Shown here piece by piece: positions 1 through 62,739 of a stretch of 64,000 nucleotides of DNA. The stretch is taken from the NCBI GenBank assembly GCA_032358255.1, contig JAULBX010007440.1, forward strand, positions 1 through 64,000, given 5' to 3'. The position numbers were made by a program, and so were the translations under genes. Each line of letters opens with the position of its first letter. Positions within the stretch are counted from its first letter, which is position 1. The notes under the pieces were generated by a model, which worked only from the letters and a program-made list of their open reading frames with translations, was not told where the DNA came from and did not search any database. The stretch is from Heterotrichella gracilis (Eukaryota; Sar; Xanthophyceae; Tribonematales; Xanthonemataceae).

Positions 1-2465
1 CCACCACAGGCTGCAGCAGCCCAGCGTATCCTATCACAGAAAATCCCTCCAGCCGCCCACCCCCCCACCCACCCACCCACCCCCCACCGCCGCCACCCAC
101 CTGGAGCGACAGGTTAAAGCAGCCCAGCCTGTCCCCAGAGAGCGAGTCCGCACCCCCACACACCACGATGGCCCCCGGTTGATACACCTCCATCACCTGC
201 AAGGGGTGGAAAGTGGGGGGTATGTTCACGGCCACGCTTACATTCAACTGCAGAGCACGTTCCATATTACATTGCACCACGGCACTACTTTTTTAGATTT
301 TCAAAGCCTCCTGGAGGTAATAATTTGCAATTGTAGAATACATTTTTTTTCCAAATTAATCAAAATTTGCAAACTGCCTTTCGATTTGAACAAAGAAATT
401 AAACTGGCATGTCATGCCAGCCATGGCGTGGGTCCGCCTCAACCAGGCTTCATAGTCCCTGCCCCATGGTCCCTCCATGCCATAACCCAAACTCCCACCC
501 ACGCACCTTTTGCAGCACGGGTTCAAACACCATGCTGTACGACTCGTCATCCATCCCCTCCTGCAGGGGCACATTGAGCGAGTAGTTCTTGCCCGCGCCA
601 AACCCCACGTCGCCCAGCGCGCCAGTCCCCGGGAAGAAATCCCCATACTTGTGAAAGCTGACTGTCATCACCCGGTCAGTGGTGTAGAACGCCTCCTCCA
701 CACCATCGCCGTGGTGGATGTCGATGTCGACGTACAGGACCCTGGGGGTGGGTTGGGGTGTGGTGGGTGGATGAGTGGGGCGGATAGCACATGGTAATGC
801 GCGTGTTATGGGAAGGGTGGTGGTGGTTATGATGAAAGGGGGGGCAGCATGCAGGAGGTGGTGTGGGATGGGAGGGCAGTGGTGTAGTACGCCTCCTCCA
901 CGCGATCGCCATGGTGGATGTCTGTGTCCACGTCTAGGACCCTGCGGGTGGTGGTGGGTGGGAGGGTGTGGGTGGGTGGGCAGGGTGGTGGGGTGGTGGT
1001 GTGAAAAGAGCGGGAGGTGGGGTGGTGGGGGTTGGCCGGGCGGTGGGGGATAAAGCGTGGTGCGGTGAGGTGGTGGGTGCGCGCATACATGTATGGCGCA
1101 TATCGTGTGCAAGTGTGATGCAATTGCTTGTGTGCAAGCGCCAGTGATCCAAGCCCCTGCCAAGTGCACTGAAAAGGGGCAATAGGGCAGGGCTGAGTGC
1201 GGCCCCCAGGTGCCAAGGGAGCCACTACACAGGTGTTTAAACGGGGGGAAGCCACACCAGCACCACCCTTGACTCTGTCGTTGTTTGTGCCCTTTCAGTG
1301 CAGTGTGTTCAGCTCTCACCTTTGGTGCACTTTCAGCAGCTCGAGTATGGCCAGCACAATGTCGTTGATGTAGCAGAAACCAGACGCCTCAGCCTTTTTG
1401 GCGTGGTGCATGCCGCCTGCACGAGCGATGCACCCACTTGCTGAGACTTAGGGGTGCATGCATACGTTTCTGTATGTGTTGGGTGCACTGGGTGCACTGT
1501 GGCGGGTCAAATTAAAGGCGCTGGCTGCGGTTGGTGTGCATTGAGGTGGCATGCAGGGTGCCAAGGGGGGAAAAGGCACACGGACGAGGATGGGAGATGC
1601 TAGCAGCCCTGTGGAAATGCAGATGGTGCGTGGTTTGCGTGGTTTGGGAGGCAAAAGCGCCCCGCTATGCAGCTGCGCTGCACGTCTTGCTGTGGGGAGC
1701 GGCCGGTGGGGTCGCTGCGCGTTATGCATGCATACATTGGCGTTGCCCCCACCCCTACCTGCCCAATTGAGCACGATATCTGCCTCCCCGGAGTTCATCA
1801 TCGCTGCACCCCCCACCGACCCGGCGCTGTAAATCTGCACGTTGCAAAACAGGGGTGAGGGGTTGCGAGCGTAGGGGAGGCGACGGGGACAAACCACTTG
1901 TCTCCACCTCCCGCCCCCACTCGGCATTCAGTGGGGCAGCGAAAGCAACACCACCGGGAAACCGCACCCCAGGAGATGGGCAGTGCGAGTGGCGTGTTTT
2001 CTTTAAGTGTGTGAAGCATGCAGGGCGTGCGTACCTGGAAGTACTCGTACATTCCGTCGAAGACAGGGCAGTCAGCTTCCCCCACCGGCCCCAGGTTGAA
2101 CCTCCTCATTTGGGTCAAAAACTCGTCCTGGTTATCCGGAGTGACCGTCCTCAGAAAGTCGATGTACTCTGCGACGTTCACAAGGCGTTGTCAGCGTGCA
2201 AAGGGGTTGAGAAAGCAGCCGGAGGGTATTGCCAGGTGGAGGAGGGGTGGGCCTGCCTACCATCGGCATGAAAGGCTGTGAGCTCCTCTCGTGATTTGGG
2301 CATCGGCCGGTTGATGAGCAGCTTGTTGCCCAAGCCGTAGCCCCCCACGAGGCTATGGGTGAGCCTGACTCGGTGGGGCCGCATTGGGTTGCCCCCACCA
2401 TAGTTGAAGTTGCCGATTTCCTCGTCATAGTAATACGCAACCACGGGCTGGTTCTCTTTCACCAT
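1..2465 (-). CDS. Class I (RPD3/HDAC1-type) histone deacetylase, partial at the 3' end
   Basis: Zinc-dependent lysine deacetylase that acts on histone tails in nuclear corepressor complexes. Six exons were read on the minus strand: 2465-2261, 2168-2035, 1834-1759, 1416-1320, 741-507 and 196-101. Their lengths sum to 843 nt (281 codons) and every junction is in phase. The start ATG at 2465 gives [20 protein letters not shown], the usual N-terminus of this family. Visible catalytic elements are GGMHHAKK (the His pair), [12 protein letters not shown] (zinc Asp and His) and [11 protein letters not shown] (second zinc Asp). The family's QCGAD reads CGGAD here, so the cysteine is shifted by one residue. 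The remaining C-terminal part (active-site Tyr region and tail) lies beyond base 1. The intron between 741 and 1320 holds a decayed copy of the start of the exon at 741. Confidence 0.95.
875..948 (-). repeat. Decayed copy of an HDAC exon head inside its upstream intron
   Basis: In the transcript direction this copies the start of the real exon at 741 together with its acceptor (…CCGCAG). It reads [20 protein letters not shown] against the real [20 protein letters not shown], then loses similarity. It lies upstream of the real exon. The real exon carries the family-consistent residues and continues to a donor; this copy does not. Confidence 0.85.
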
Positions 2466-3538
2466 GTTGCCCAGAAGTGCCAGTCACGGGCTGAACCCTG
2501 ATCCCCGTGTAGCCAGGCAGGGAATAAGGCAGGTGTGTATGCCGTTCAGGAAACTCTGCTGTTGCTGGTTGCAAAGGGGTGGGCTTGTGCACCCAGGTCT
2601 ACCCCAGTGGCAATGCCATGCATATATATTGTGTCACCCAGCAAGCATGGCGAAAGGTACTCAGTAGAGCAGGAGCACCTTTGCCACCAACAATAGCAAT
2701 GCGACTCTGCAAGAAAGAATGGAGGGAATGGCAGCACGCGCGAGGATATAAAGATAAAACAAACGCCTCTGCAAAGACCCGTCTGAAAGTCGCGCGCAGC
2801 TGGGCGGGAGACTGGCTGCAGCCCGGCAGCGCGGGCGGAAGCGTCACCCTCAGAAAGCCACTCGCCTTTTCAGCTGAAGCTTGCTTTGAAAGCAGCGCTT
2901 GTAAGGCAATTAACGCCATGAATGCACATACATACACAGATAAGGACTGCGCAGACTGTACGAAGGCGCACTGCCGCAGAGGCATCCATGCATGTTGGTG
3001 ACCACACCATATGCATGCACTATCGAAAGTAGGCAACCTCGTGCAGAATACAGTATGGAAAATAGAGCCCATAAAGTGACCCTTTTAAATTGGGTGCTTG
3101 CAAACGCTACCAACCAGGTGGTCTATTGAAAAGCACAGTGGGTTTGAACTGGCAGGCGTGGATGACATCTTGGCGTTTCACGTTTCACGATAATACCAGT
3201 GCGGTAGAAGCTAGAGCTAGAGCTTTTGGGTTCTAAGGCTTGCGGCAGACAACAGCAGCAGCTGAAAAAGTTCCACATATATATAGGAGCCCACCTCAGC
3301 AGCACTTGGAGACTGTGAGCATCCACATGCATAGCAGTGACACGCTCACCAGCGGCGCAGCACGCAGCACCCCAGGGGGAAAAACCACTTGGCAGAACCT
3401 GGCGGGCAGGTCAACACCCCAGGGGGTAGAAAACAAGCCAGCATCAGGGAGGTGTAACCATCCTGGCAGAGGAACCGAGGTGTGGACCCTGTGTACACAA
3501 GGCAGTGGTCGAGGCACAGTGGGGGGGACTTGACACAG
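2466..3538. promoter_or_regulatory. Divergent intergenic region between HDAC (-) and the DCD gene (+)
   Basis: No coding sequence was recognised. A minus-strand TATATAT motif lies near 2627-2634, about 165 bases upstream of the HDAC ATG. A plus-strand ATATATATAGG motif lies at about 3275-3286, upstream of the DCD gene. Both could be core promoters, but this is inferred from position only. A non-coding first exon of the DCD gene could lie in 3300-3530. Confidence 0.4.
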
Positions 3539-3638
3539 CCTACCTGAAGCACCACCACAACCACAACCACAACCACAACCACCACCTCCACCGCAACCAC
3601 CACCACTACCACCAACGCCACCGCCACCACCAGCAGCC

Positions 3639-6600
3639 ATGCCCAGGCACGCCGGCGCCCCCTCCCCGCCCCCCACCTGCCCCCGGGAGCCGGTGGGGGG
3701 TGCCATATTTGGGTGCAGCCCCGCCACTGAGCGGGAATGCCTCCAGGGCCTGTTTGGCCTCAGCCAAACCTTCTGGCCCATGGTAAGTGCTAGGGGTGTG
3801 ATAAGTAGGGTTTAGGGTTTATATTGGAGGGTTTTATGTGCAGCCCCGCCACCGAGCGGGATCGCCTCCAGGAATCATGGTGGGCTTGCAGGGTGTTGGG
3901 TGTAGGGGCGGTCGGTCGGACTACAAGGTGGGTTGTGTTTAGGGTTTTGGGGACTAGGGTACTGGGTGCTCGCTGTGACACAGCTCCCTGTATCGCCACA
4001 GGTTGCGGCAATAGAGGATGGCACTCCCTTGTTCCTGTTCAACTTCAAGACCAGGGAGATGCATGCGCTGTTTGAGGCGGAGGGGAGGGGGGGCTGGCTG
4101 CTGGAGCCAGGGGCGTACGCACACACAGGCCAAAGCTTCCCCGCACAGGTGAAACCCTGCACAAAACCCCACAGGAAAACTCTACAGAAAACCCTACACA
4201 ACAATTCTTGGCGCCCTGCACATACAGGCCAAAGCTTCCCCGCACTGGTGAAACCCTGCACAAAACCCTACAGGAACACCACACACAGAGTCATTGCACA
4301 CCCTGCAAGAACGGGTCAAAGCTTCCTGGCACAGGTATGCAGACCCCGATGAGGTATACAGAAATTGCATAGGGATTGCATTGCACACGGGATTTCTGGG
4401 TAGTCCGCTTGCATCCCCGTAATGGTTTGTGCGCATCCCAGTGCAAGCTTGCCGGCATGGTTCACGGGCACTGGATTGCCTCCTTGCCAACCTCGCCCCC
4501 CTTCCTCTGCCCCCAGGTACGCGTGCGGCGTGTGCGCGCCCCACCCTCCCTGCACGAGCGCGACTTCAAGCCAGCCATACGCGACAACTACTTTGCATAC
4601 AACAAGTTTGATATGGAGCTCACCCAGCGCCAGGTAAGCAGGGATGCAGTAAACCCTACATTCTAAACCCTAACCCTTAAACCCTACAGCAAATTTGACA
4701 TGGAGCTCAGCCAGCGTTAGGTAGTAAGCCCTGAACCTTCAAATAAATACATAAATAAATATCTACTCAGCCTATCCTTGAACAGGCGCGTTGGTTAAGG
4801 AAGAGGATTGAGCGAAGAAAATGGCATTGCCCTTCTGTCCACTGTTTCCCCTACCATCCCTGAACCTTCAATTGTAACCCTAATCCTAAACCCTGAATCC
4901 TTAAACCCTACACCCTACAACAAGGTTCTACATGGAGCTCAGCCAGCGCCAGGTAAGCAGGGATGATGTTGTAACCCTTGTTGAGCACGTTTTTAGAGGC
5001 TGAGGCATTTTCATTTTGCCTTTTTGGGGTTTGCATGGCAACAAATATAATGGGCTACATGGGGCGATCAAGAGCCATGATCAATATCGGACCGAATTTA
5101 CATTACGTTAAAATACATTAATAAATCAATGTTCTTCAAAGCATCAAATTGACTCTGTGCTACCTATCCCCCCAGGTGAACGACCTGCTGGCGCTGTTTA
5201 TGGGCCAGGCAGGGGAGTACCCGGTGCCACGTCAGCAGGCGGAGCCCGTGGCGGCGCCACGTCAGCGCATAGAGGTGCTGGTGCACGTGCCACGTCATCA
5301 TCGGGTGGAGCAGGGGGAGGAGGGGAGGGGCCCCAATGGGGAGGGCGAGGGGGAGGGGGTGGCTGCGCCACGTCAGCGATTGGAGGAAGTGATAGTGCCA
5401 CCTCAGCAGGAGGCGCAAGGGGGTGAGGAGCGGGCGGTGGTGGTCGGGGGGGAGGGGCGGGCGCCTGGCGCCACGTCAGCACCAGCATCAGCGCCACGAG
5501 TGGTGGAAGTGGCAGTGCCACGTCAGCGGTCAGAGGGGAGAGGGGAGGGGATGGGGGACAAGGGGGGGCGCGATGGGGGGAGTGGGCGGGAGCGGTCAGG
5601 GGGGGAGCGAGATGGAGGCGCGGAACGGGGGAGGGGAAGGGGAGACCGAGATGGGAATGTGGCCAGTGGGTCGGATGGGGCGGAGGTTGAGGTGCGTGGC
5701 GGAGGTGCATGGTCAATCTTCATACCATCTGCTGATTTTCAAGATTGGTAATGCCCCCTGCCATGTTGGTACCTTGCCCTGGTTCAAGCATAAGCCGGTG
5801 TCTGGCTTGGCAGCCCTTTTATGTAGGTTTTATTTGGGGGGTAATGGGTTGATGTAAATGGAATGAAATGGAGTGTGATGCTGTCCGGAGCTGGGGGTCC
5901 TTTGTGGTTGTAACTTGCTCTGCCATGTGCATTTGCAGGAGTGGTTGGGTGTGGGTAGGAGGCGGGCCGCGGAGAGCAACGGGGGAGGGGCGCATGGCAA
6001 GCGGCAGAAGGCTCGCCACGCAAATGGTGAGATGCAGGGGCATGGGTGCTTTAGGGTTTAGGGTATTGACGTGTGCACACATCGGGTGCTGTAGGTTTTA
6101 GGGTGTTGACATGTACGCGTATTCAACCTTGATCACAGCGTCAATCGAAATTGTCTTGATTAGTTGCTCTTGCTGATGTGGTGTGATGATGTCGTGAGTC
6201 AAGCATGTTGGCCAAGGGAGGAAATTGCAGCAGCTGGTGCAGCTTTAAACCTGAAACTCAAAACCTAAACCCTAAACTGTGTTTTTACTGCTTCAGGCAG
6301 CAGGTTGCAGCAGCTGGTGCACCTGGAGTCACACGAGGCCTCACCCGCGCAAGGGTACGCACATGCAAATTCACGGATACACATGCCAGTCAAAGCACGC
6401 ACGTGCAAACCCACTTGCGCACATGCACATCCACTAACGCACATGCAGGCCAGCCATGAGTCACCAGGTTGTATGCATGCATGTGCCTTATGTCGCATGC
6501 CAATCCCTGTGCATATGCCACGCTACCCAGCTTCAGATGTTGCCAAGAGTGCATTCTTGTGCAGGTTGTGTTGGCACCGGCCTGACAGTGGCAGCCCAAC

Positions 6601-9371: not shown

Positions 9372-9867
9372 GCTCCAGGTGCCACTGCTGCGGGTGACGG
9401 TGACCCGGGAGTCGAGCAGCCTGCTGAAACGGTGCTGATGAAGGTGATGTCACAGCTCTGGGCAGAACTGGAGGCAAAGGTGGAGGCAAAGGTGATGTCA
9501 CGGATTAGCCACTGCAGGCAAAGGTGCAAGAACTCACTGCCATGGCCGGAGCCCAGGTATTTTCTATTGAGCTGAATGGCAAGTCTGAGATACTGCACCC
9601 AAAGGTGCACTGCGCTGATGTGCTGTGTTTGCTGTTGCGCACTCTCGCACGAAACTGACTGAAAGGGAGATTGGCGAGGTTTATGAGGCGGAAGCTGACG
9701 CTGCTGGCTATGGAGGCACCGTACGCTGGTTCCAGGAGCGCTGTCCAGCTGTGGGGTGAGAGCTGGAGGAGTTGTTCCAAGGGGAGGACATGCAAAGGCT
9801 CCAACAGGAGTGGGGAAATCCGCCCAGCCCAGGTGTGCCATGGTTACTTTCTGCAGCCACTGTGTAG

Positions 9868-9925
9868 GCTTTAGGGTTACGGTTTAGGGTTAAGGGTTTC
9901 ACCCCAAACCCTAAACCCTAAACAG
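9868..9925. repeat. Head-to-head telomere-like heptamers in the kinase gene
   Basis: TTTAGGG-type units (plus strand) meet CCCTAAA-type units across TTTCACCCC in an intron directly before the exon at 9966, forming an inverted pair. Other intronic heptamer tracts lie at about 3808-3820, 6050-6065, 13450-13620, 21030-21055, 29438-29530, 29686-29730, 32645-32662, 44572-44590, 49005-49085 and 51135-51155. Confidence 0.85.
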
Positions 9926-11180: not shown

Positions 11181-11550
11181 GTTACAGCCTCATCACCTGT
11201 CACTACCACCAACTGTACACAGAACCCTAAGCAGGGTTTAGGGCAACATATGGAACCCTATCAGGGACCACGTGGCAGCGCTGGTACTGCTACTGGCTGG
11301 TAGCAGCGCCTGTCCTACAATGGTGGATAAGCAGGCAGCGTATTTTGCAAGCCAACTAGCAAAGCAAGAAACGCTGCTGCGTATCCAGCATTGTAGGACA
11401 GGCGCTGCTACCAGCCAGTAGCAGTACCAAGCGCTGCCACGTGGTCCCTGATAGGGTTCCATATTCTACCGTAAACCCTAGTAGGGTTTCCCTGAACCCT
11501 GCTCAGGGTTCTGTGTACTGTTGGCGGTAGTGACAGGTGATCAGGCTGTT
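11181..11550. mobile_element. Foldback (long inverted repeat) element in a kinase intron
   Basis: The inner arms 11251-11322 and 11389-11460 are reverse complements over about 72 bases with a single one-base difference, separated by a 66-base spacer. Outer arms, imperfect and interrupted, extend the pairing to about 11181 and 11550 (for example TCACCTGTCACTACC against its complement near 11527-11542). There is no transposase. It is a MITE-like or foldback insertion, or a recent inverted duplication. The near identity of the arms suggests youth. Confidence 0.85.
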
Positions 11551-11599
11551 GCCTGTGGCGTGATGTTGTACGGTGCCTCTCAGCCATCCTTAGAGGTGG

Positions 11600-13429: not shown

Positions 13430-15285
13430 AGCAGGTTGCAGCAGCTGGCTGGGTGCAGCCCTAAACCCTAAAACCCTTGGCCTAAACCCTAACTGTGTCT
13501 GTGTTGGTTCAGGCAGCAGGGTGCAGCAGCTGGTGCAGCTATATATAAACTTGGGAACTCTAAACCCTAAATTTAACCCTCGACCTCAACCCTAAACCCC
13601 AAGCTGTGTTTGTGTTGGTCCAGGCAGCAGCAGCTGGTGTAGCTGGAGTCACACGAGGCTTCACCCGCTCAAGGGTGCGCACATGCCAATCAACGCACGC
13701 TCATGCCAATCAACCCGACTGCATTCATGCTCATCCACTTATACAAATGGCGGCCAGGGCATCATGAGGCACGAGTTTAGGGGACGGGGTTTGAGGTTCA
13801 AATTTTGAGGTTCAGGGTTTAGGGTTCAGGGTTTAGAGTTTACGATCCTGCAACTCACAGGGCACCATGAGGCACAAGGTTTCATGCGTGCATGCTGGTT
13901 AACATTGCATGCGGGTCCCTGCGCATGTGCTGCGCTGCCTAGCCACAAATGAATCACCCACTACAGTCTTGCACAGGGTTGTATTGGGCACCGGTCTGAC
14001 AGTGGCAGCACAACAACCACAGCTCATCATCAATTTTCACAAATGTTTTCTATTATCACAGGACTGTTCTAGTGCTTGCTGTTCTACCCCTCAAGAGGGC
14101 ACATCTTGTTGTGCAGGGTTGGGTTGGGCACTGGCCTGGTGGTGGCCGGCTCGGGACTGACCAACAAGGAGCGCTTTGCACTGCGCCAGCTCAACATGGC
14201 CATGGGGCAACGCCAGCACCCTCGAGGGGGTATGGTGGGCAGGGGTGGATGGATGACAACACGCGCCAGTGATGGATGGATACCGCGGGGTCATGCACCA
14301 GGGCTCGGCGCACCAACCAGGCGGGCGGCTGTGGGCTGCATGTGGGGGTGGGCCAGGGCGCGGTTCCACAATAGGGCTATGTGCAGCAGCCAGTACAGGC
14401 GCAGCCGCAGCCTGAAAGCAGGTGGGCACCTATGGGCAGGTGGCGGGGGTGGGCGGGGGCGCTATTCAGCAGCAAGCGCAGGTGCATGTGGCCGGCTATG
14501 GCCTGCAGGCAGGGGAGTATCAAGGCCCTGCGCTGCAACAGGCCCAGCTGGGCTATGTGCGGCAGGCGGGGATGCAGCAACAAGCGGCGGGGATGCAGCA
14601 ACAAGCGGCAGGGATACAGCAACAAGCGGCGGGGATGCAGCAACAAGCGGCTGGCTATGCCAGAAGGCAGGGGTGCCGCAGCACGCAATGGCAGAGGAAT
14701 GCCTACGGATGCATCCATATGCATGCCTACTCAGCTGCACACGCACATCAGGAGCAGCAAGGTCAGCAGGGGCAAAGCCAAATGCAGGACGGGCAGCAGC
14801 AGGCGCAAGCGCTTCTGCAGCAGGAGTCTTGTTAGTGGTATCAAGGACAGCAGCCGCAGCCGCAGCAGTACTCTTTGCAGAGCAGTGCGTGCTACCATTA
14901 CTGACAATTGCGGGTGACGTACAGTCACGGCATAGGTGTTACAGAGTAGAGTGACAATGAATGCTCCGCTTTTCTTCAAGTACCCATCAATCGTTTTGTC
15001 TGCGGCATTGTCACCCAAGTTGACCAGTGTTGGATTTTGCTGCTGGTTGCAATCGTATGGAGGTGCCAAATGTAACAGACACCCTCTGTTGTGATCACAT
15101 ATCAATTCTTGAATGGCTCTTAACTTTTGGCCATGATGTGAGTGAGTTGAAAATGTTGCAAATCAGATAGCACATACCAAGATGCCATCCATTAATTCAG
15201 TAATCTATCTGTGTAATACACAATTGCAGCGACTCATGAGGCCTCCAGCGAATTCGTAGTACCACGGTGCAGCACCATTCAGGAG
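13430..15285 (+). pseudogene. Duplicated and decayed 3' part of the DCD gene
   Basis: Segmental copy of about 6297-8145. Three copies of the exon 6 motif GCAGCAG…CAGCAGCTGG lie at 13429, 13511 and 13621; the last extends into the sequence encoding ESHEASP. The decoy at 6562 is copied at 13976, and the exon 7 head at 14115 reads VAGSGLTNKERFALRQLNMA. After that the copy has lost about 150 bases, acquired a TGA near 14270 (parent QVVDG, copy Q then stop) and shifted frame. A four-fold 24-base repeat encoding QQQAAGM units occupies 14572-14650. The 3' flank is also copied (TGTAACAGACAC at about 15071). No DCD domain exons are present. Confidence 0.85.
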
Positions 15286-23228: not shown

Positions 23229-26200
23229 ATGGCGAGAACGGTTTCTGCTCGTTCCCAGTGCACAACGGCCTTTGCATCACCCAGCAGGAGTATGCATGGA
23301 GGGTCTTTCACAGCCGGTGCTGGCATGCGTGGCACCACCCCTCGTCACCTTCTAAGGTATGCACCTGCTCCACCAAGATGTTCACCTGCCGACCCGTGAA
23401 CAACGTCTCAATGGCTTTGTGTTCGTTACCCACAAAAATATGGAGTCTGTGTCGTTAAACATTACCGGTAGAGTGACACACAACCCAGATCGCGATCTGA
23501 CATATGCATGCATATATGGGGCGCACTAGTTCACATATGCATGCATGCCCAACCACAAACAGACGTACAGCCAGTTTATCACACACACGGCGCCACGCAG
23601 TTCCTTCCTGGCACTGTTTACACCATGTGGTTGGGAGCTGATGGCACCACGGGCTTTAGACTCTCCCAGACAACACATAATACAACGCTGTATTACTCTT
23701 AACAAGAAGAATCTCACACCAACCCCCCCATTTCACAGGCCAGCGGGTCACAGGCGGCCGTACGCGTCACCGCTCCAAGCATCGGCAGCGACTCCTGCCA
23801 CTACAGAGGGTGGGTGGTTCAAGGCTGTGCCATGCCTGACTGGACTACGTGTATGCTACTAGGCGTTTACTGCACTGCTGGCATGAGAGCATAGGACGGA
23901 ACCTAGCTACATTGGATGTGCACCATTTGGAGTACTATTTGGGTATTAAACTACCGTAGCTTACTACTGCACACGGGCGAGTGCTTATTTGCTCCTCCGG
24001 CACTTCCCGGAGCCCTTCTCTCTTCACACACCCCACACACCCTCCACACCTACACCGCACAAATCCATCCACCCACCGCACACAAGCCACCCCTCAGCCC
24101 ATAAACCATCTCCCTCACCCCACCCGCATGCGCCTCCTCCCCCGCCACCGACCCCGTGTCTCTCCTCCATCGTGTAGCCAGGGCATGTGCCTCTGTGCGC
24201 CACCACCAACTCCTGTGCGCAAACCAACTGCAAGTCCAAACAGCCGACTGACTACCACACCATCCACCCCACAAAACCCTCTGCGCCCAACCCGCCGCGC
24301 TTGACTCTCCCCTCCCCTAACCACACATTTTGTCCGCAGGCGCCTCCTCCCCTGCCACCGACCCCGTGTCCCTCCTCCATCGCGCAGCAGCCGACTGCAG
24401 TGTAGCCCCAGCTGACCTGGTCAAGGCAATGAGGGACGCAAAGCGCACTGCAAAGGTACAGGCAAAGCCCTAAACCCAGAGCACTGAACACTAAAACCTG
24501 AGAAGGACATGGCCAAGGTAAGGAAAGGTGCCAAAGTGGACAGCACAAGCATGGGGCCAAAATCTTAAGTTTGTGCCTAAACCCTGCCACAGCCCACCCC
24601 CCGCAGCACATATGATGCAGTGGGGTCAAGGCGCGTCCTGGCGTGCATGCACCTGCCGCATATGACGAGGTCACCTGCACCACCTTGGCATGCATCATTT
24701 GGGGCGGGAATCAGGGGGCGCCACCTGGCATGCCTGCACGCCATATGGTACGCAGTTAAAGATGCTTACACGCGACAGGATCACAGGGCGCCGGCTGGCA
24801 TGCATGCCGCTGCAGGAAATTTCCTACCAAATGTCACATGCCATTCTCCCCTCAACATGTTGCGCCACCCCAAGTGCCCCTCCCCGCAGGCTGATGGTTG
24901 GTTCCAGGTGCTTGCGGGGGAGGTGTCTCCTGGCAAGACGTGGAAGCTGGTGTTTGCGGCAGGTGGGGGGTGGGGATTTATGTGCACGAGTAGGGGATGT
25001 GTGGGAAGGGTGCAAGGGGTGGGAGATTGTAGATGCTGTGCCAGGGTGTGCATAAATGTCACAGTCAGAAGCGTCAGGGGAGGTGTCTCCTGGCAAGACA
25101 TGGAAGCTGGTGTCTGCGGCAGGTGGAGGCCAGAGGGAAGGGGGGGGCACGGGTGGGGGGTGGGATGATATGTGCGGGGATGTGTGCGCATGGATGTGCA
25201 GGCGGTGCTTGAGGCGCTTTTGTTCAGGCCTGGGGATGGCTCATATGGGTGGAATGGTTAAATAGGGTGAGAAGGCCAACGAGGTCCACAATCCTAAACC
25301 CTAAGCCCTACACCTTGCCCCTGCCCAGGTGCCAAGGATGTGCGCAAGGTCAAACAAGGGGGAGAAGGCCTACTGGGTCTAGACCCTTAAACCCTACATC
25401 TCTAAGCCCTGAGCCCTAAACCCTTCCCCTGCCCAGGTGCCAAGGATGTGCGCAAGGCCAACAAGGGGGAGAAGGCGGGGGGGTTCTACATGCCACTGGC
25501 GGCGGCGCAGGTGCGGCCCTAACCCCTGGGACACTGCCGGTACAGTTGCTGCAACCTCATGGTAGCTTCATATGTTAAAATTACGCAGTACTTCACCGCA
25601 CACAGATCCACATTACGCAGCATTGCAACGTTCTTTGAATTCAAGCGTTGGAAGGCCGGGTGGTTCTGCATGCCCCCGGGTGAGCAGGTTTTGGGGGCTA
25701 TTCATCCCACCAAAAATGAAGCCAAGACTGTTGCTTAGAGTTTACCATGAAGTTGTGTACAGGTAAAAATGAAGTTAGTTGAAAAATTAAATTTAACTGC
25801 CCTCCTTGTCCCGCAGCACTGGGACGGCCCCTCCGGGCGCTCAAAAGCAATTCCCGCCAAAATGTGTTCCCCAAGAATTAAAAAACAAATCCCCCTTTTG
25901 TCCCGCAGCACTGGGACGGCCCCTCTGGCCGCTACTCCAACGGTGTGTACCTGGGCTGGCTGGCGGCAATGGTGTTTGAGGGGCCAATCAGCTGGAGGGG
26001 GGTGAGTGGTGGGGGGTGGGGGGGAGCTGGGGGCTGGCTGGGTTCATGTGGGCCTGCGGCAAGGTGGTGCGGCTCATTAGCAGGGATGGATGTAGGTGGG
26101 GGCTTGCACAAAGTGGTGGGTTAAGGCTGCCGGACGTGGCGGTTGGAAGCAATATTTCACATCCAACCCATTGAGGAACCCCAAGCCCTTGTCCTTCAAG

Positions 26201-35032: not shown

Positions 35033-37131
35033 TGCTGGTGTGGTTTGATAGGGTTTAGGGTTTACGGTGGGCATGCATGCGATCCATGTTAGCGTCATGA
35101 CTGAGTTGTGGCGCAAAGATGAAGCCATTTTTTTGGATGCTTCGGGTGTCAGTGGTGTCCACCTCCCCCGCCACCTTTGCCGCCACGCTGGAGAGGCTGC
35201 ATGTCATTGACTACCTGCTCACCTCAATCGAGCTGGTGGAGTTTGGATAGGGTGCTGGTGTGGTTTGGATAGGGTGTAGGGTTTAGGGCGGGTATGCGTC
35301 ACCCGCCGCCGTCAGTGACTCAAGAGTCATGGTGCACAGATAAAGTCGTTTTTTGGATGCGTTATGTGTCAGTGAAATATGTTTTCCCCTTCAGATAGTG
35401 TGCCTGGCTCAGATGGCTTAGTGGAGATCGTGCTTGCACCTTCAAAGGTGCCCCGTCATCTTTGTAGTCACAATTGCTCAATTAATCGGCAAGCAATGGC
35501 GTTCTGTACATTGACAGCGCTGGCCTTTGAATATACCATATGGAATATTGATTGGATGGAGCTGCCAGCTGTACGCCAGTGGCCTGACCTTCACAATTAA
35601 CTCACAGACCCGGCGCCTGTTCCTCCATGTCACATGGCAATTGAGGCAGCCAGTGGAGTTCAAGGGGCGAGTTTTTAGGGCTCCCAATATTTTCCTGTTC
35701 ATCATCAACTCAGAGTTCAGTGAAACACCAAGTGTGTTACATTCCTTCAGTTTAGTCAATCTGTATTTCTCTTGACAAGCTCAACTACATGAATGTTACT
35801 GGTGACTGTGACCCCGCTATTGAGCGTAATTGTGCCCTTCTTCCTTTCTTGCCGCCTTTCCGGGCTGCAAATTTTGGTTGAACCATGTTCAATTTACGCG
35901 TGAATGTACTGCGTGTCAGCCTGTTGCCTGACCCTGGATCAACATGCATATCATTAAAGTAGTTAGCCGCTATTGGCAGTGAATCTGAGTGGCGTCCGTC
36001 CACCCTACACTGGTGGTGGCGCAGAATTGCCCACTCCTGTGCACCCTAACCAAACACCACGGCGGGATAATAAAGCCTGTGCAATACTCCACAAGGGGCT
36101 GCTTCACGCCAGAAAAAAACAAGACATTTTGCAGTCCCTTTTGCAATCACAGAGTACGGCATTTTGTCATTCTGTGGCCAACAGTGGCCACTGCATCCAT
36201 CAAAATTGTTCATAAACATAAGTAACACAGCCTAAAGAGTGTACAGAAAAGGCGGAATCTAACACAGAGAGAGCACCGAGTGAACAGGAGAGCTGATAGG
36301 TTCAAGGAGACGCTAAGAGACTGACCAAACAATGTGGAAACCGGTGTTGTCACACAGGTTAGCCCTGAGCGCCTGCTGTGATAAGTCCACACAGAAAACT
36401 GCACTGCACTGCAAAGTACATCACGCTTTCAACACCAGAAAATAAATAAAAACCCGCAGGTCTGGTTGCACACATATGGGGGGTAGATACAGCCTGGCCA
36501 CAAGTGGACGGGTGGTAGCACAGAGCCATACTGTGGCAAACCATGGCGGAATATGTAGTGGAAAAAGCAAGCTGCTGGAGGCTTGGTTTGGCCCACATGG
36601 AGGATACATAAAGCAGTGAAGGACCAGCAAGGCTCACCTCACCCAGGGTGGTGGCTCATGACCGAGCTGTTGCACTCCTAACAGGGAGCAGGTTGGGGGT
36701 AAACCATGTCAAGGCCCTGTGACAGGCTTGACCCAGGATCAAACAATGTTAGAAACAGGTGCTACCCCCCCATGCTACCTAAACTATGTGCTCTGTCCTC
36801 CCAGATAAGAAACAGAGGTTGGGCAAGGCATCAGCGTGCCAGTGTGCGGGCCCTGCGCACCGCTTGGGCGAAAAAGTATATTTAGCAGAACAAACGGGTT
36901 TCTATAACAAATTGCAGGGGAAATGTTGTTGCTTGCGTTTGAGAAAGCGCGGTTGACGACATCGGCTGCAGGGTTGCAATGAGCCCTATGCCCAGTGCCC
37001 AACATACGCTACAAAAAATAGCAGGGACGAAAGAAAGACGGTTTAACTTTGCAAATCTAGACTGTTCACTAGCCGGACGGAAGCTGGGGCGCCTGTCGGA
37101 CAGAAACTCTGTCCACGTCTGTGCGCCCCCT
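35033..37131. other. Downstream of the LPA1 gene, with a post-stop tail copy
   Basis: At 35150-35240 a decayed copy of the end of the last exon (TSPATFAATLERLH…DYLLTSIELV) follows the real stop by about 120 bases. Beyond it, to 37131, there are only unsupported reading frames. The tail of the minus-strand gene ending at 37132 may extend here. Confidence 0.7.
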
Positions 37132-42004: not shown

Positions 42005-46548
<4,544 letters not shown>

Positions 46549-48334
46549 GCGGCGGCGGCCGCCGGAGGGGCGAGGGGGATGCGGAAGAGGCAGTGGGGAT
46601 TTGCAGTGGGTGACGCGTGCGCACACACACAGGGGCTTCGATTGAGCGGCGACGGCGGCGGCGGCGGGGATCAGCAGCGTGGATTGTCAGTGGGGATCAG
46701 CGGCAGCATTCAGCCTGTTGTCAGTGCAGCGGGGCACGTGCATGGCATTGAGCGAGAGCTGGGAGGCGGGTGGTTTGGCAGCTGTGGGGGGAAGCTGCAG
46801 TCCACGTTTGGTGCGCCACCTGTGCTTTCGTGGCCCACCCTTGCTGGAGCTCAGGAACCACTCCCTCCAGGGTTACCACCTGCCGCACTCCTCCCTACTG
46901 CCAGAGCCAGCGCCCCCTGCTGTGCAGCACCTGATTGAGCATGCAGCGCGCACCGCTGCAGCATGCAGTTCTTCCGCGCCTGCTGCCCTCCCTCCGCCTG
47001 GCCCATGGCATGCAGTACTGGAATGCAATAGCTTTGGGCGCGCTGCATTGACTGGCAGAAATCGTTTTTGAATAGCAGCTACTCAGCAGCGGCAGCAGCC
47101 TGCAGTGCAGGCGAACAATTTTGTGCATCAGTACAATTTCCTCCAGTGTGGACCCACCTGCTGCCAGTTTAGATATGCGCCCACTTTGATACTGAAATAT
47201 CTGTAGCTTTAAAATCCACACTTTGATGATCATAGCATTGCAGTACGTAGCTATTGACATGCAATGCAATTTGTGAAGCATGCTGGCGCCGCCGGGCCAT
47301 GCTGGTCATGGCATTCAGGTTTGCAGCAAACTAGGTGCACTGCAGTGCCACGTAGTACAATGGCATGATGTGCACATGATGATTGTCAATTCAAATTTGT
47401 TCACCGCCGGTTCACCGTCAGTGACGTTCTACGCAACATAAAAATCGTCAGATTGACCATACTGAACTCGAGCTCGGGTGACGATACCGTAGTCATGACT
47501 TGCACGGAACCCCAGGGGAGGGCCTCGAGCCTCAAGGAGGCGATCTCTCCCCTTGGGGCGCGTCCACGCAGCGCATCAGAATCTGATGATTCTTCAACGA
47601 TTGCACAGAGTCCATCGAGTTAAAATCAAACCCGCATCTCTTAGCTGTTGCACCAATCAACAATTTATTCATCCCTGTTCAAATTTCACGCCACATCCCC
47701 TTCTCCGCCCCTGCCTGCAGGGCCTCATAAAACGCTGTTGTCTTCATAACGAAACTCTCGTATATATAGTATAAAACGTTACTAACAAACTGTTCTGGGC
47801 AAGTGAATCTGGCAATGAACGATAATCACTCTCAATTCAGTGAGACTGGGACCTGTCTGTAGAATATGTCATCCCAAAATCTTTTACCGGCACAGGGTCT
47901 TGCCCCAAAACACTCAAAATGGGGAAGGTAGCAGCCTTACTCTCCCTCCCTCACCCTCCTTCGGAATCCGCCATCCCTCTCCAGCCAATCGACGTATCCA
48001 AACACCCCACAACCCTTAGTCTGCCTGCACGCTTGGCTTCAAGCCTGGCCCAGGCTTGAGAGGGGCCATATCCCGTCCCACTCCCCACCCTCTCATCCCC
48101 GTAAAATCTCCAAAAAAAACCACCACAACACTCTCGTCTGCCCCCCTCCTCCATCCGCAAAACTCACCATCCTCCCTCGCTCCCCCTGTGGTGGATGTCC
48201 TCCCCGGCCGCAACATCCACCTCACCCACTCCAGTCTGCCTTCACCCTCGGCTAAAACTTAGGCATATGATTTGGCAGCACCTCCTCCCCCTCTACCCTC
48301 TTTAGGGTGTAGCAAAACCCACGCAAAACTCCCT
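46549..48334. other. Convergent intergenic region with tail copies of both flanking genes
   Basis: Bases 46603-46650 copy the GDH C-terminus (GGGTGACGCGTGCGCAC…GGGCTTCGATTGAGC) just after the real stop. Bases 48016-48070 copy the end of the DUF2854 gene (PGLKP-VQAD stop on the minus strand). In between only unsupported frames are seen. Confidence 0.65.
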
Positions 48335-51300
48335 CTAGTCTGCCTTAACCCTCGGCTTCAGACCAGGCATGAGTGGGGGAAGCACCTCCCCCCGCTCACC
48401 CCCACCCCTCCCCTCCCCTGACCCATCAGCCACCAGCGCCACATCCATGCCGGCATCGGTGGGGCACAATAGGGAGGTGATCCCGGGGCCAAAAAATGAG
48501 GTGATTTTGGGCAGCCTCTCCTCCCACATCTCCTTGGTCAGGTCTGGCTTGGTGGAGAACTCGAGGACCTGAAACAGGGAGGAAAATGGGGGATGTTCAG
48601 CGCACGACACGCAGAAGTGGAGGATGATTGTGGGGCGAATGATTAGAGGCATCATATGTTGCAATAGGTGTGGTTATAGAGGCATGGTTTGCTACATTTC
48701 TTTATCAAAGTGCGTACTTTCCGTCCACCTCCTCCTCCCTCCCTATGCAGGAAAAGCAAACACCAAAATCCTAAGGATCCACACCGATGTGTGCCATGGT
48801 GTCATACCAGTTCCCTCCCTAACTAAATACCCTCCCATTCCCCAGAGATGTATCCCCACATAAATTCCCTTGACCCCTGCACTTCCCTCCCCGTTTCTCT
48901 TACCAGCGCGTACTTCCCATCCACCTCCTCCTCCCTCACACCCACCAGGATGGGGGTCAGGCGACGCGGCAAACCCTTGGGCTGCAGGCAGGAAACCACA
49001 AGTTAAGGTTTAGGGTTTACAGTCAGGCGACGCCGCAAACCCTTTGGCTGCAGGCCGGAACCACAAGTTAGGGTTTAGGGTTTAGGGTCAAGCTCCTGAA
49101 CGCAACCCTTGGTCTGCAGGCAGGAACCCACAATTTAGGGTTTGAGTTTTCCACCAAACGCTGCCCATCACCATGAAACCCAGAACACACCCTCCCCAGC
49201 AGGAAACCCTACCCCCAAACCCAAACACCCACCCTCCCCAGCTGGAAACCCCTCTGCAGGGCCTCCTCTAACTGCTGCTCGTCACCGTCAATCCTAGACC
49301 CTAAGCCAAAACCCTATCCAAAACCCTAGCACGTACCCTCCCCAGCAGGAAAACCCTCTGCAGGGCCTCCTCCAGATGCTGCTCATCACCATAGCGGAAG
49401 CGGGTCACATCATCGCGAATCTGCGGGGAGGAAATTATAGGGTATTTAGTAGGGTTTTGGTGAGGGTTGAGGTAGGGCAGGGTGTCACCGTAGCGGAACC
49501 GAGCCACATCACTCGCAGATTCACGTCCCTGCGTGCGGTGGGTGTGGCGCGCCAGGACAAAAACCCTACTAAACCCTGGACGCTGAAACCCTGGACGCTG
49601 AAACCTTGTGCTCATGTGAATGACAGATTTGCTGGTCCCCCTGGCAAGGCAAAGAACGCATCGCTCCTGCAGAGAGACACATCCCCAATGCTTCTCTTGT
49701 GCATTTCGGCAAATTAATTACCTGCTTCTGGATGTCGGTGGCCTGTGTGTCCCTGAGGGCCAGTGCAGTGGGTGTGGTGCGGCATGGCACGGGGCGCAGC
49801 TGTGCATAGGACAGCGCAAAGCCCAGCACGCTGATTGGGAAGCCATAGATGAGGAGCAGGGAGGAGACATCGCCACCTGGAGGGGAAGGGGGGGGAGGTG
49901 AATGTTATGCGATCATGGCAATTTGGACTTTTAAGAAAGACCAGCATGAGTTGAATGTTGCTGAGTGCCATGTAGCGTTTGCATGGCTACAACTCAGCAT
50001 GCGGCATGCAATCAAAGCACAATCATGGGGCCGCTGTACACGAAGAGCAGAGTGGTCACAGACTGATGATGTGTGTGTGTTGTGTGTGTGTGTAAATGCG
50101 AAGAAATCTGGGATGCTTGGCAGGAAGGAATTGCGGTGTTCTGTGCATATGGTGGAGGTGTAGAGCAGGCAACTGTGGGTTCAGGTCGCCTGGTTGTGGG
50201 GGTTAATATCCATGCACATATGGGGTTCAGGGTTGAGGGTGTGGGGTTTTGCGATATTACCTGGCCATATCTGGAAGAAGGCCCCAAATCCGTACATCAC
50301 AAGGGTTAAGCCCAGATTCAAGGGTTTAGGGTTCAGGTTCTAGGGTATTACCTGGCCATATCTGGAAGAAGGCCCCAAATCCATACACCAGGAGGCCGAT
50401 GCCCAAGGGGGTGAGGATGGAGCCAAACGAAATCTGAAGGGGAGGGCATTTGTGAGACTCGCGACACTTCCAAAACGCATGCACTTGAACCCTGGATAAC
50501 GATGAAAAGCGGGCAATTATCCTCTAGTTCTGTTCTGTCCTGCATTTATAATAATATCCTATTATTCCTGATATATGAATTCGTGGAGTTCATGACAGGA
50601 CCGAATAACCACCACATAGCTGCATTCATGGTTATATGTTGCTTTCGGAAGACATCTGACAAGTATACCAGGCGCCCAGCCGTGCTGTGGTCCAGCCAGG
50701 TTTGCCACACAAAGATGTACGCTGGCGTGTGCACCTGCAGGGTGTGCGCACCCGCTCCATCCTGAAGCTCAACTAGGATGTAGGGCTTAGGGTCAGGGCT
50801 TAGGGTTTAGGTTAGGGTCAGAGGGCGCGCACCCTCTCTATCCTGAAGCTAGTGTCCTCTACATACTGCGGACTTAGGGTTTAGGGTTTAGAGTTTGCAC
50901 GCACCCTCTCTATCCTGAAGCTCGTGTCCTCCACATACTGCGGGCTCCCACCGCTGCCTGATTGGGCACGCACTCCTTGCAGGGGGGCACTGCAGATGCT
51001 GCAAAACGGGGAGGGAAAAGGCAGCACTCAGGGTGTGTGTCGCAGGTACATAGGGTCACGGCAGGCCATCGATACCCTATTTAGGGTGCACGGCTGGGGG
51101 ATTAATGTGACCTGTAGGGTCTGGGCACTCTCACCAGGTTTAGGGTTTAGGGTTGGCATACAGTCGGTACATACATAAGGGTTGGGGCGGGTACTGTGCG
51201 CATGCATATGATGGGGAAACGCAATTCTCCCTTCTAAACTCCCTACCCCCAATCCCCAAACAAAGGGGGCGAGTACGCATACGGATAGAGTGCACACCCC

Positions 51301-54041: not shown

Positions 54042-56393
54042 CTAGGGTGTCCTAGGGTTGTGGGATGCCGGGGCATGCTGTGGCGTGCTGCTGGGTGCCG
54101 GTGCCCTCTCCATCATGCTAATATACTCCCGCAGGTGTTGGATCTCCCTGTCCTTCATGCTGTTTTCCACCTTGAGGCGCTTGGCCTGGTCCCTTGCCTG
54201 CTGGCCCCAGGCCTGGGTGCGGGCGAGGTGCGCGCTGCGGGAGGGAGGGGATGTGTGAGGATACGCCGGGGGAAAGGGTAAGGGTGTGAGTGGGACGTGT
54301 AGGTGGGTGTGCGCTGCGAGGGGAAGGGGAGGTGTGAGGGGGGGGGGTCGAGGGCGGCGGCAGACGGCGCGGGTAAAGAGTAAGGGTGTGGGTAAGGGTA
54401 AGGGTGTGAAGTGGGATGTGTGGGTGTGCTGTGCCGCTGGGTTTGCAGCAGGCAGACCTCCTTGCTCTGCTCACCCTAAACAATACCCTTACCCTAACCC
54501 CTAGCTATCTACCCTAGCCCTACACCCTACCGTGAGCGGTGCAGCTGGGTCTGCAGCAGGCAGATCTCCTTGCTCTGCTCCCCAATCACCACCTGCTCCC
54601 AAGCCAGCTCATCCACAAAGGGCCTTTTCTTGGGGGCAAGGGGGGCGACCACCGGTGGGCGGTTGTTGGGGGTGAAGCACGAAGTGGCGTTGGCGGAGGT
54701 GGGTGTGTCGCACTCAAGGGGGGAGTCGTGGTGGTGGTGGTCGGAGGGGGAGTCCTCGGAGACCGTGCAGGGGAGGTGGTGGTGGTGGTGGTGGTGGTGG
54801 TCCGAGTCGCACGAGGGGGAGGGGGAGGAGGGCACCCGGCGCTCGTTGCTGTGGGGAGGGGGGTGGGGGGTGGTGAGAGGAAGGAGTGAGTGGGGTGTGG
54901 CGGGTAGGTGCACACCCTTCTGTAGGGTTATGGGCACTTGGGGTTTGGGACCAGGGTTGCACAGACTAGGGTGGGCACGGTTTAGACGGGAGTGGCGTAA
55001 CAAGCATGCGTCATGGTGGTGGCACAAGGGGTGGGTACCCGGATAAGGGGCGGCACGGTGGCCAAGTGGGCGGCATCTCAGACGGGCCTGGTGGAAAGGT
55101 ATCGAGCTTAACACAACTACCTTCTCGCAGTACAATAGGCCTAGGCAAAAGCGTGGGCGAGGCGAAGGTTCGACGGTGCGCGCGGAAAAACTTTTCGGGG
55201 GCCGCTGGGAAAAAGTGCAGGCGCCTGGCCCGCTAGACCCTCCTACAACCTCCAACCACGGAAACCATATCCCAAGCTGGACAGCTCAACCCGAGGCCCA
55301 GGGACAGACGGGTGAGCCTCCAGCCACGCATTGGGCAAAGACAACGGCGCGAACGACGCTCGCATCGTCCCCTGACGAATCCATTGTCGCATGTGACTTT
55401 TGGGTCCCAAGGCATGCGAGGCGAGTCATGACTAGTCAGCCCACAAACCACGTCACTTTGCTCAAGCCGACCAAACTCGATCAAATTCGAAGAAAAGGCA
55501 GTGTGCGCCTTCGAGGCAATGGACTAGGCCTGAGAGTTGGGCTTGCATGTCAAGGGTAGAGGTGGGCAATTGGCATCGGGATGGCACCATCGCGCCCCAT
55601 TGCGCACAGCGGCCAAAAGTGGCCCATACGAACGGGGCTGTCAAAGAAACTAGTCCAACGAATTAAAGACAGGAAAAGGAAACCAAGCAGCTGACATTCC
55701 CGTGTTGGGATAGGGGTACTGGGCATTTGGGTTCACGGGTTGTGGATTACTCAGGCAATGCACCCATGCACCCCATGTCCGGTACCACGCCATGGGACAC
55801 GTGTGTGAGCCAAAAACAGGCGCATTGGCGAAGAAAAAGCGAGCTAGACAGCCAGATTACCCACTGAAACGTTCCAGTAGTGCATGGCAGCAAGGGAACG
55901 GAGAGTGATGTGGGTTGGCGTGGAGGATACCTGACGCATTGGGGTACCCAGCGTGCAATGTGGCCAGGGCCACTTTCTGGCCATCTCCCGTTTAAAAAAA
56001 CCACAAACACTGTGCAAAACCCACAAGGGACTGCTAAACAGGAAGAGGAACGCGATCCTACCGGATCGTTGCCCAACTACGCGCACCTACTACCTAGCTA
56101 GCGTTGCACGCCCAGCATGCTCTCAGGTACAAGCGTTTGAACCCTGGGCTGACAAGGACCTTGGAAAAAGACAGGCAGCATCTTGGAATCTGGCCAGGAA
56201 ACCAATTGGGCCGCCGAGTGCGGCGAAGGGTGGGTTTCCCGCGAAGAGATGGAAGCATCTGGTGGCATATACCGTACCTCACTGGCGACCTGGTGCGAAT
56301 TGGGGCTAGGCTCAGGTAGCTGCACATGCTCTCGCCACACTGCTCGGCCTTGCTCCCCATTTTCCTCGCTTTCTTCTCAAATGACAGCGCCAT
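54042..56393 (-). CDS. Unknown protein with His8 tract and C-terminal coiled coil
   Basis: Three exons, 56393-56278, 54848-54531 and 54234-54042, join in phase 2 twice and total 627 nt (208 aa). The N-terminus is MALSFEKKARKMGSKAEQCG. Exon 2 carries a run of eight His, a second His4 run and acidic Ser/Pro stretches, then KKRPFVDELAWEQVVIGEQS and KEICLLQTQLHRSR. Exon 3 continues ARTQAWGQQARDQAKRLKVE and MKDREIQHLREYISMME. Together the last 80 residues form a charged heptad-like helix, probably a dimerising coiled coil. No known family was recognised. The link of exon 1 over a 1.4 kb intron rests on phase and good splice sites only. A tail copy of exon 2 lies at 54433-54478. Confidence 0.6.
54433..54478 (-). 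repeat. Tail copy of coiled-coil gene exon 2
   Basis: It repeats the code for EQSKEVCLLQTQ, against EQSKEICLLQTQ at the end of the real exon (54531), and lies downstream in the transcript. Confidence 0.9.
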
Positions 56394-61500: not shown

Positions 61501-62739
61501 TAGTCCCTCGGGAAGTTGCCTAAGATGGAAACTCAAGAATTGCCAGGCTCTAGTTTGCAGCAAACCCTTTGCAAATGTCATGATGGAAAACGGTCTGCCC
61601 TGAACAATAGCACCAACAAATGAAAGGGCAATGGGCACAGCAGGCGCCAGATAGCTCTAAACACGAGGATGCACTGTCACACTCTAGCAGCACCCCACTA
61701 GACCATAACACTTGAAACCCTCAGCCTTAAACCCTACACGCCACTCACCCTGCCCAGCCCGTCTTGCCCATACAGCGATTGGAGGTCAGCAGTGGTCGCT
61801 GTTGCTGCTGTGGGTGTGGCTGTGGGGGTGGCTGTGGGTGCGGAGGTGGATGCGGCTGACCCTGACTGTGCACGTGCAGCGTCCATGGGGTTGAGGTCTA
61901 CGTGGCGTGCCTGTGAGAGTGGGGGGTAGGGGTGATTTGAGGCACATCATGCAATGGATGTGCATGTGGCTTGGGTGAAGCTTGGGTGAAGTGGTGGGCA
62001 CGGGGATGGTTGTATGGTTGCGGTGAGTAGGGGGCTGGTGCAGCGTATTATGTGGGGGTCAATCAATGCCCACAACCTCTTCACCACCGCTCCCCAAATC
62101 ATCTAGACCACACACACACACACAAAAAAAAAACTCCCCACCCTAGGGCTGATCACGTTCCCCCCCACCACCCACCACCCACCACCCACCTTGACCGCCC
62201 CCAGCGCCAATCGCAGCCGCACCCCCAGCGCTTCCCGAGCCCCACGCATCCGCCACCTGGCCTTCGCCACCGCCCTGCGCGGGTCGATGCGGGCTGCACG
62301 GGCGCGGTTGCGAGCCACAGCGCGCTGCATCCGGGCACGGGCGGCGGCAACCAGCCGTTCCGCCATGGCCTGTGGTAGGGGTGGTGGGTTTTAATGTTTT
62401 GGGTTGGCGAGTTTCATGGGTAATGGTATGCAGTGGGTTAAGTTTAATGTTTCCCCGCCTCCTCCCATTGTATCAATGCTCCCAACTGCAAGGTTGCTTG
62501 CCTTGGCACGCAGGCGCATGGAAGCCATGACAGGGTCTGGTTAGGGTCCGGTATGGGCGTGGCGTAATTTGCCGCACGGTGCGGTCAGCATGTTGGTTAC
62601 AGTTGGCAAGGGTTTGGTAAGGGTATCACTGCCTCACCGCCTCCTCTCCCTGTGCCGGCGCCCGCAAGTCCAGGTTGTTTGCCTTGGCGTGGAGTGTGCG
62701 CAGTACCTCCCTGTAGGCTCGCACTCCAGCTGCAGCCAT
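58593..62739 (-). CDS. Tafazzin-like (PlsC family) phospholipid acyltransferase
   Basis: Transfers acyl groups to lysophospholipids; tafazzins remodel mitochondrial cardiolipin. Exons: 62739-62638, 62369-62190, 61910-61749, 61449-61162, 60773-60547, 60115-59953, 59719-59629, 59384-59165, 58764-58593; 534 aa, phases agree throughout. The catalytic HX4D motif is in PLITVSNHVAALDDPM (His about 195, Asp 200). The acceptor-binding motif is GEWVHIFPEGTRSRDGKLGR (about 270-289). RRGVGRLVA, VVVPWVHAGMEEVFPR and LPLERGAGLTQPG are also tafazzin-like. The Arg/Ala-rich N-terminus (MAAAGVRAYREVLRTLHAKA; second exon ARARMQRAVARNRARAARID) may target an organelle. Exon 8 codes an Ala/Pro-rich insert and is the least certain. 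The last exon is KMANLKQQLKSSLTSPALIS and ends RHLSEMMALA. Confidence 0.86.
60965..61085 (-). repeat. Large tail copy of tafazzin exon 4
   Basis: Copies the last 38 or so residues of exon 4 (VPLGTLLHADRVRWMLCASD, then RCFKHAAVADFFRAAK) with a following GT-like site, downstream of the real exon end at 61162 (VPLGTLLHPDRVRWTLCASD). It is about 90 percent identical, one of the youngest copies. Confidence 0.95.
62490..62535 (-). repeat. Tail copy of tafazzin exon 1
   Basis: Degraded copy (LRAKASNLAV) of LHAKANNLDL from exon 1, placed downstream of the real exon. Confidence 0.65.

Follow-up and report, generated by a model that had tools for sequence, protein, structure and literature searches.

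In Daphnia pulex, new introns are described as carrying direct repeats of the adjacent exon end together with internal repeats, and these have been read as the outcome of staggered-break repair that passively lengthens introns (PMC4202315). Direct repeats near both borders of an intron have been read as traces of insertion at breaks (PMC11782384). In mammals, interstitial telomeric sequences are reported to have been inserted at double-strand breaks, sometimes with a target duplication ascribed to staggered breaks (PMC2246262, PMC7215372), and in mammalian cells CST, the telomere fill-in complex, acts with Pol alpha at 3' overhangs to make small tandem duplications (PMC8355091). The window considered here, 64,000 nucleotides of the alga Heterotrichella gracilis (positions 1-64,000 of contig JAULBX010007440.1), carries copies of exon ends within the adjacent introns, many of them separated from the original by telomere-type heptamers (CCCTAAA or TTTAGGG). 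With a probability of about 0.6, we read these copies as repair scars, made when staggered breaks were filled in and rejoined with filler.

Local direct duplications, with or without filler, reportedly arise from two nicks in the patch-mediated break repair of rice and in the paired-nick duplications of Arabidopsis; these are not known to be linked to exon borders or to telomeric filler. In Daphnia pulex the exon-end repeats have lengths of 4-12 bp and signal that an intron has newly arisen (PMC4202315), whereas the copies in Heterotrichella are tens of bases long, come with telomeric filler and lie inside introns: intron gain of the Daphnia type, which would set the repeat against the next exon, was considered and rejected, as only 7 of the 98 copies are found at a distance of 8 bp or less from it. 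The repeats of 4-30 bp in PMC11782384 relate the two borders of one intron and argue for intron insertion; here, one border is copied into the intron. Among mammalian interstitial telomeres, loci with duplication alone amount to 4.6% in rodents, 16% in primates and 4.5% in the horse, and the human intronic share was judged compatible with random insertion (PMC2246262, PMC7215372); in our sample direct repeats enclose 31% of telomeric clusters (45% where the cluster is longer), by a measure different from the mammalian one, and the clusters favour exon borders. The CST-guided duplications resemble what is proposed here in that fill-in and end joining double tens of bases, but they were observed at Cas9 breaks in mammalian cells (PMC8355091), while ours are read from scars, and with filler. 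The preliminary description of this DNA recognised no described class for such copies; the kind is in fact known from the Daphnia introns (PMC4202315) and the mammalian interstitial telomeres (PMC2246262, PMC7215372), and what differs is the scale, which is much larger here, the repeat length and the exon-border bias. No report of exon-edge copies with telomeric filler was found among the top-ranked literature matches, most subscription journals lying outside the coverage.

Position and frequency of the copies

The sample comprises the window and 25 ten-kb tiles from elsewhere in the same genome (68.5 Mb in 903 contigs), 314 kb in total; the tiles lie at round coordinates, on contigs chosen among telomere-repeat matches, so the sampling is not strictly random. 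Exons were called by a purpose-built two-strand gene finder, trained on the sampled sequence, which merges adjacent genes; it returned 839 exons and 781 introns with a clear splice consensus, and 72 of the 839 were taken out as being copies themselves. Three window genes remain in frame without the copies and score above the Pfam cut-off, namely glutamate dehydrogenase (PF00208/PF02812), histone deacetylase (PF00850) and a GNAT acetyltransferase; a P-loop protein falls slightly below it, and a Pfam search of a fifth gene gave no match. A homologue search with one protein of the window also came back empty.

Local repeat pairs, with copies 40-1000 bp apart and after a low-complexity filter, are overwhelmingly direct. 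There are 215 direct pairs (17 more were removed as low complexity), 62 of them in the window alone, against 41 inverted ones, which shrink to 5 once 36 overlapping hairpins are set aside. The reversed sequence, used as a control, gave 23 pairs after the identical filter, and 115 of low complexity. The matched length has a median of 68 (5th-95th percentile 30-226). Sorted by position, heads of exons are copied upstream in 44 pairs and downstream in 2, and tails downstream in 75 and upstream in 1; the other pairs involve an exon interior (24), are ambiguous (11), have neither copy exonic (38) or have both in one exon (20). The sorting is imperfect, as pair 24917/25077, scored as interior, is by reading frame a tail copied downstream.

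The preliminary description had stated that copies of exon heads lie upstream and copies of tails downstream, and 119 of the 122 edge-touching pairs agree. In the window, where 30 distinct exon edges have a copy, the counts are 15:1 for heads and 19:0 for tails, and counting intronic matches by head or tail position in the tiles gives the same rule. Of the three violations, one falls in a polypyrimidine array (window 34289), one where an exon was probably called on the wrong strand (tile L009) and one at a tile end (L024). Two further statements of that description stand: the end of the last exon is copied past the stop codon, as seen for exons 34859-35029 and 46375-46545, and the duplicated unit often spans the exon-intron border.

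What does the rule mean? Largely, it is geometry and purifying selection. A duplication inside an exon breaks the mRNA and is lost, and one that spans a border can persist only where splicing removes the spare copy, hence head copies upstream and tail copies downstream. The rule does show that the spare copy is made in place, beside its original, rather than dropped in randomly.

In all, 99 exon edges have a nearby copy, 12 of them two. Ninety-two of these belong to the 1216 edges of introns of up to 1200 bp, or about one edge in 13, and the others are gene ends or edges of longer introns. Pairs and spacers make up 23,378 of the 172,986 bases (13.5%) of introns up to that length, counting the intron parts of the originals. 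The copy rate is uneven among regions (chi-square p 2e-7; 9 of the 25 tiles have none) and rises with median intron length (Spearman 0.47, p 0.016); coding score, coding fraction and GC content do not account for which of the 26 regions carry copies.

The features of the window are as follows; percentages are identities of copy to original.

507-741, minus strand: histone deacetylase exon (PF00850); its head, 674-741, is copied upstream
874-976, minus strand: intron copy of the head of exon 507-741, 81%
4119-4180, plus strand: tail of exon 4002-4148 with the first 32 intron bases, 93.5% identical to 4218-4279
4218-4279, plus strand: intron copy of that tail, with its donor GT, matching 4119-4180
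4598-4646, plus strand: tail of exon 4517-4633, with copies at 4685-4723 and 4916-4965 and a CCCTAAA-type run at 4651-4686 in between
6450-6467, plus strand: intronic empty site in the upstream paralogue, where the alignment of the paralogues shows one copy without filler
13755-13878, plus strand: copy (13755-13775), TTTAGGG-type filler (13776-13857) and copy (13858-13878) in the downstream paralogue, intron only
24124-24178, plus strand: intron copy of the head of exon 24340-24455, 90.9%; spacer of 155 bp with no other genome match
25077-25129, plus strand: intron copy of the tail of exon 24890-24962, 94.3%; the real exon is settled by reading frame
25294-25369, plus strand: intron copy of the head of exon 25437-25510, 90.8%; CCCTAAA-like spacer
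25806-25841, plus strand: intron copy of the head of exon 25909-26001, acceptor AG present, 94.4%
26308-26376, plus strand: intron copy of the head of exon 26423-26517, 80%
29633-29961, plus strand: exon tail (to 29674) and its copies, with TTTAGGG-type runs at 29685-29724 and 29783-29839 in between
30426-30586, plus strand: intron copy of the tail of exon 30135-30276, 75%
31314-31637, plus strand: head copies 31314-31381 and 31445-31517 upstream of exon 31573-31710, with CCCTAAA-type spacers
34285-34875, plus strand: tandem array of acceptor and head copies, of the contiguous type, preceding last exon 34859-35029
35144-35374, plus strand: end of the last exon and adjoining 3' flank copied beyond the stop codon, 75% to 34929-35154
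43280-43316, plus strand: glutamate dehydrogenase, copy of the tail of exon 43097-43229, 94.6%, preceded by CCCTAAA filler at 43252-43279
43399-43533, plus strand: glutamate dehydrogenase, copy of the head of exon 43588-43722, 78.6%
44476-44513, plus strand: glutamate dehydrogenase, copy of the head of exon 44597-44765, 92.1%, two CCCTAAA-type runs in between
44868-44907, plus strand: glutamate dehydrogenase, copy of the tail of exon 44597-44765, 97.5%; AT-rich spacer of 99 bp with no other genome match
46602-46669, plus strand: glutamate dehydrogenase, copy of the last-exon end past the stop codon, 83.8% to 46505-46570
49204-49286, minus strand: intron copy of the tail of exon 49337-49420, 84.3%
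50229-50299, minus strand: intron copy of the tail of exon 50352-50433, 85.9%, with a telomere-type run at 50321-50346 in between
50796-50874, minus strand: intron copy of the tail of exon 50905-50998, 82.7%
54424-54475, minus strand: intron copy of the tail of exon 54531-54848, 88.5%

Anatomy, telomere-type filler and decay

Most pairs have a spacer between the two copies, and this copy-filler-copy anatomy, like the direct orientation, is observed directly. A plain tandem duplication would leave a spacer that resembles the intron beyond the outer copy; this is so in 9 of the 74 testable edges with spacers of at least 25 bp, and in 1 of 24 where the copies are at least 88% identical, which rejects such an origin for young pairs. 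Four non-telomeric spacers were searched in the genome, and each found only itself, in a small sample and by a search that ignores very common words.

The tandem paralogues at 6.3-7.8 kb and 13.4-14.9 kb offer a view of one event: the filled site at 13755-13878 faces a single copy without filler at 6450, and the telomeric tract is missing from the uninterrupted paralogue. The event itself falls below the detection threshold of the local-pair search. This pair demonstrates the anatomy of an event, not the border bias. Two genome DNA searches with gene stretches returned dispersed repeats and short matches, and no paralogues that would give extra empty sites; a search with 13600-14200 found the known paralogue only, plus telomere-like tandem units. 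The paralogues encode a glutamine/glycine-rich repetitive protein, and the downstream copy looks degraded by eye.

The preliminary description had also noted CCCTAAA or TTTAGGG heptamers near the copies, and the association is strong. Telomere-type hexamers cover 11.2% of the spacers and 9.9% of the copies outside exons, against 2.95% of the intron sequence that lies outside pairs and 0.75% of exon sequence; over all introns the cover is 4.0%, against 1.8% in an order-2 Markov resample. When telomeric clusters were defined by at least 12 telomeric bases (n = 224), and telomeric and simple sequence was masked in comparing their flanks, 69 of the 224 (30.8%) were found to lie between direct repeats, compared with 4.5% of 1500 random intron positions and 0.6% for mismatched flanks; for the 73 clusters that contain 20 or more telomeric bases the figure is 45%. 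Across the 26 regions, the copy rate follows the telomeric density (Spearman 0.82, and 0.64 for the density outside pairs and exons).

Once made, the copies decay neutrally. Exon and copy differ at 171 of 1660 first codon positions (10.3%), 150 of 1662 second positions (9.0%) and 300 of 1645 third positions (18.2%), as would be expected of a copy that is free to drift beside an exon changing at silent sites. The exon-part mismatch spreads from 3.8% (10th percentile) through 11.8% (median) to 21.3% (90th percentile), so the copies span a range of ages, and their ends are blurred by decay. These graded ages, and the share of intron sequence that pairs and spacers occupy, favour the earlier view of a continuing process that lengthens introns.

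The same view held that the copies usually keep the acceptor AG or donor GT and supply decoy splice sites. The first part stands as a count: AG is retained in 33 of 40 edges with a real AG and GT in 43 of 49 with a real GT, a further 10 edges with other dinucleotides or unaligned ends being left out. Retention is only about neutral, the expectation at the same divergence being 80-83%, and there is no sign that decoys are maintained. The idea that decoys are generated or retained to regulate splicing could draw on the donors, since in 26 of 55 cases the decoy donor equals or outscores the real one, though the median score of decoys is lower; decoy acceptors match the real score in only 11 of 41, and use of the decoy would introduce a stop in 84 of the 93 testable edges (6 of the 99 could not be tested). 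With the neutral decay of both the copies and their dinucleotides, we hold such a role to be very improbable, and a purpose in supplying decoys is not supported.

Other repeats were seen in the same sequence. Window 29151-29310 is a dispersed repeat with at least 41 matches elsewhere in the genome, at 75-97% identity, and window 11221-11520 is a long inverted repeat (a self-match of 86% across about 266 bp; its ends, judged by eye, are CCCTAA-like) that has partial similarity at one other locus (C318). The predicted coding exon at 5176-5691 contains, by eye, repeated GCCACGTCAGC-like units. Tile L022, at 4476-5255, holds tandem exon-tail repeats whose best pairs reach 96-99% and which include a run of N, possibly a recent array unresolved in the assembly.

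How the copies may have arisen

As we picture it, the starting point would be a double-strand break with staggered ends, or a pair of nicks, one per strand and tens of bases apart, located at an exon border or close to it. Fill-in of the two protruding ends would double the stretch between the nicks, and the ends would then be joined with filler, often telomere-type heptamers, to give copy-filler-copy. Where the doubled stretch covers an acceptor, the upstream copy would stay in the intron; over a donor it would be the downstream copy, and over a stop codon the spare would come to lie in the 3' flank. Events that alter the mRNA would be lost, leaving the position rule, the intron copy would decay neutrally, and repeated rounds would lengthen the intron. 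The break, the fill-in, the end joining and a heptamer source in telomerase or the telomere fill-in machinery are what we infer from the direct orientation (215 pairs against 5 non-hairpin inverted ones), the rule (119/122), the scarcity of spacer-flank homology (9/74) and the clusters between direct repeats (69/224). The one empty site, the regional co-variation of copies with telomeric density, the codon-position mismatches, the four spacers that match only themselves and the CST fill-in of mammalian cells (PMC8355091) also speak in favour.

Other routes lead to similar structures. Backward template switching, where a replicating polymerase jumps back on its own template, often by way of an unrelated stretch, and copies a segment twice, likewise yields direct, local, copy-filler-copy structures; it offers no reason for telomeric clusters between direct repeats, nor for a bias towards borders, and we consider it improbable. 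Plain tandem duplication by slippage or unequal exchange, in which the spacer would be a part of the unit diverged past recognition, has the contiguous arrays in its favour (31314-31637, 34285-34875 and three in the tiles); the near absence of spacer-flank matches among the least diverged pairs largely refutes it for young pairs, and in the paralogue pair the filler arrived along with the duplication, so that as a general account it is quite improbable. Templated insertion of the polymerase theta type, or insertion of reverse-transcribed RNA pieces, would account for short copies lying apart from their source, but it predicts both orientations and either side, and with so few inverted pairs, and only 3 of 122 on the wrong side, it deserves scarcely any credence. 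A mobile element or introner with long target-site duplications would explain an insert flanked by repeats; all four spacers searched match only themselves, those inspected by eye have little in common beyond telomere-type heptamers, and the repeat length varies widely, so that its probability comes close to negligible.

Several points weigh against the reading as repair scars. The simplest telomerase polarity, with TTTAGGG adjoining the left copy and CCCTAAA the right, is absent (11:11 and 22:20), and the first and second halves of spacers show no telomere-type difference; old scars may have lost this polarity. The telomere-type repeats in head spacers are mostly of the CCCTAAA type in the sense of the gene and those in tail spacers of both types, an orientation that fits selection for splice signals as well. 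Some arrays are contiguous tandems without filler, as at window 31314-31637 and 34285-34875 and in the tiles (L029 8138, L026 2618, L024 8340). The empty site is one case, spotted by eye, wholly intronic and not at an exon edge. The filler of the filled site (window 13775-13842) resembles tandem units on another contig, at C173:89223-89494 (five matches, 78-82% over 66-69 bases), and so may have been copied rather than made by telomerase. Finally, fill-in by itself leaves the excess at exon borders unaccounted for.

Exon borders and the growth of introns

How large is this excess? If duplications of the same ages and lengths were placed uniformly, the 99 border edges would imply 70-152 detectable intron-only duplications in introns of up to 600 bp, and the observed number is 18 pairs, or 15 clusters. 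The 26 youngest edges would lead one to expect 25-44 such events, and 5 were observed. Scoring intron parts only, which decay alike in the border and intron-only classes, gives border to intron-only ratios of 35:18 for pairs and 29:15 for clusters, where 0.29-0.79 is expected. Age bias as the whole cause was tried and rejected, as the excess stays with intron-part scoring, with matched ages and lengths and in the youngest set. Telomeric clusters can be detected whether or not the exon is conserved; of 158 such clusters, 75 are no more than 40 bp from a border, where 43.3 ± 5.1 would be expected. At donors their excess is clear for both repeat orientations (45 against 21.8); at acceptors it is weak (30 against 22.0, P 0.035), and absent for TTTAGGG-type clusters (9 against 7.9). 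The gene models behind these counts are self-made, and splice signals next to borders are constrained; the excess could vanish, by arithmetic, in the extreme case that all 38 pairs with neither copy exonic, the 24 interior and the 11 ambiguous ones (73 together) were intron-only, which weakens the case for the bias.

The excess of border-spanning copies, the clusters near borders and the regional co-variation of copies with telomeric density suggest one further step. Breaks might be aimed at exon-intron borders, by transcription, R-loops, nucleosome edges or the splicing machinery, and be filled by telomerase and CST-Pol alpha, in which case telomere enzymes would drive intron growth. We put this forward tentatively and think it rather unlikely.

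In relatives of Chlamydomonas introns are described as notably long for the genome size (PMC8226300). The scars in Heterotrichella form a readable record of intron growth, event by event, with datable copies, and since the exon retains the original, each scar brings its own reference. On the practical side, the copies mislead gene finders, as the 72 of 839 predicted exons removed here illustrate. The border bias is the part most worth following up: if it is mechanistic, it would tie the location of breaks to splicing or transcription and to the enzymes of the telomere.

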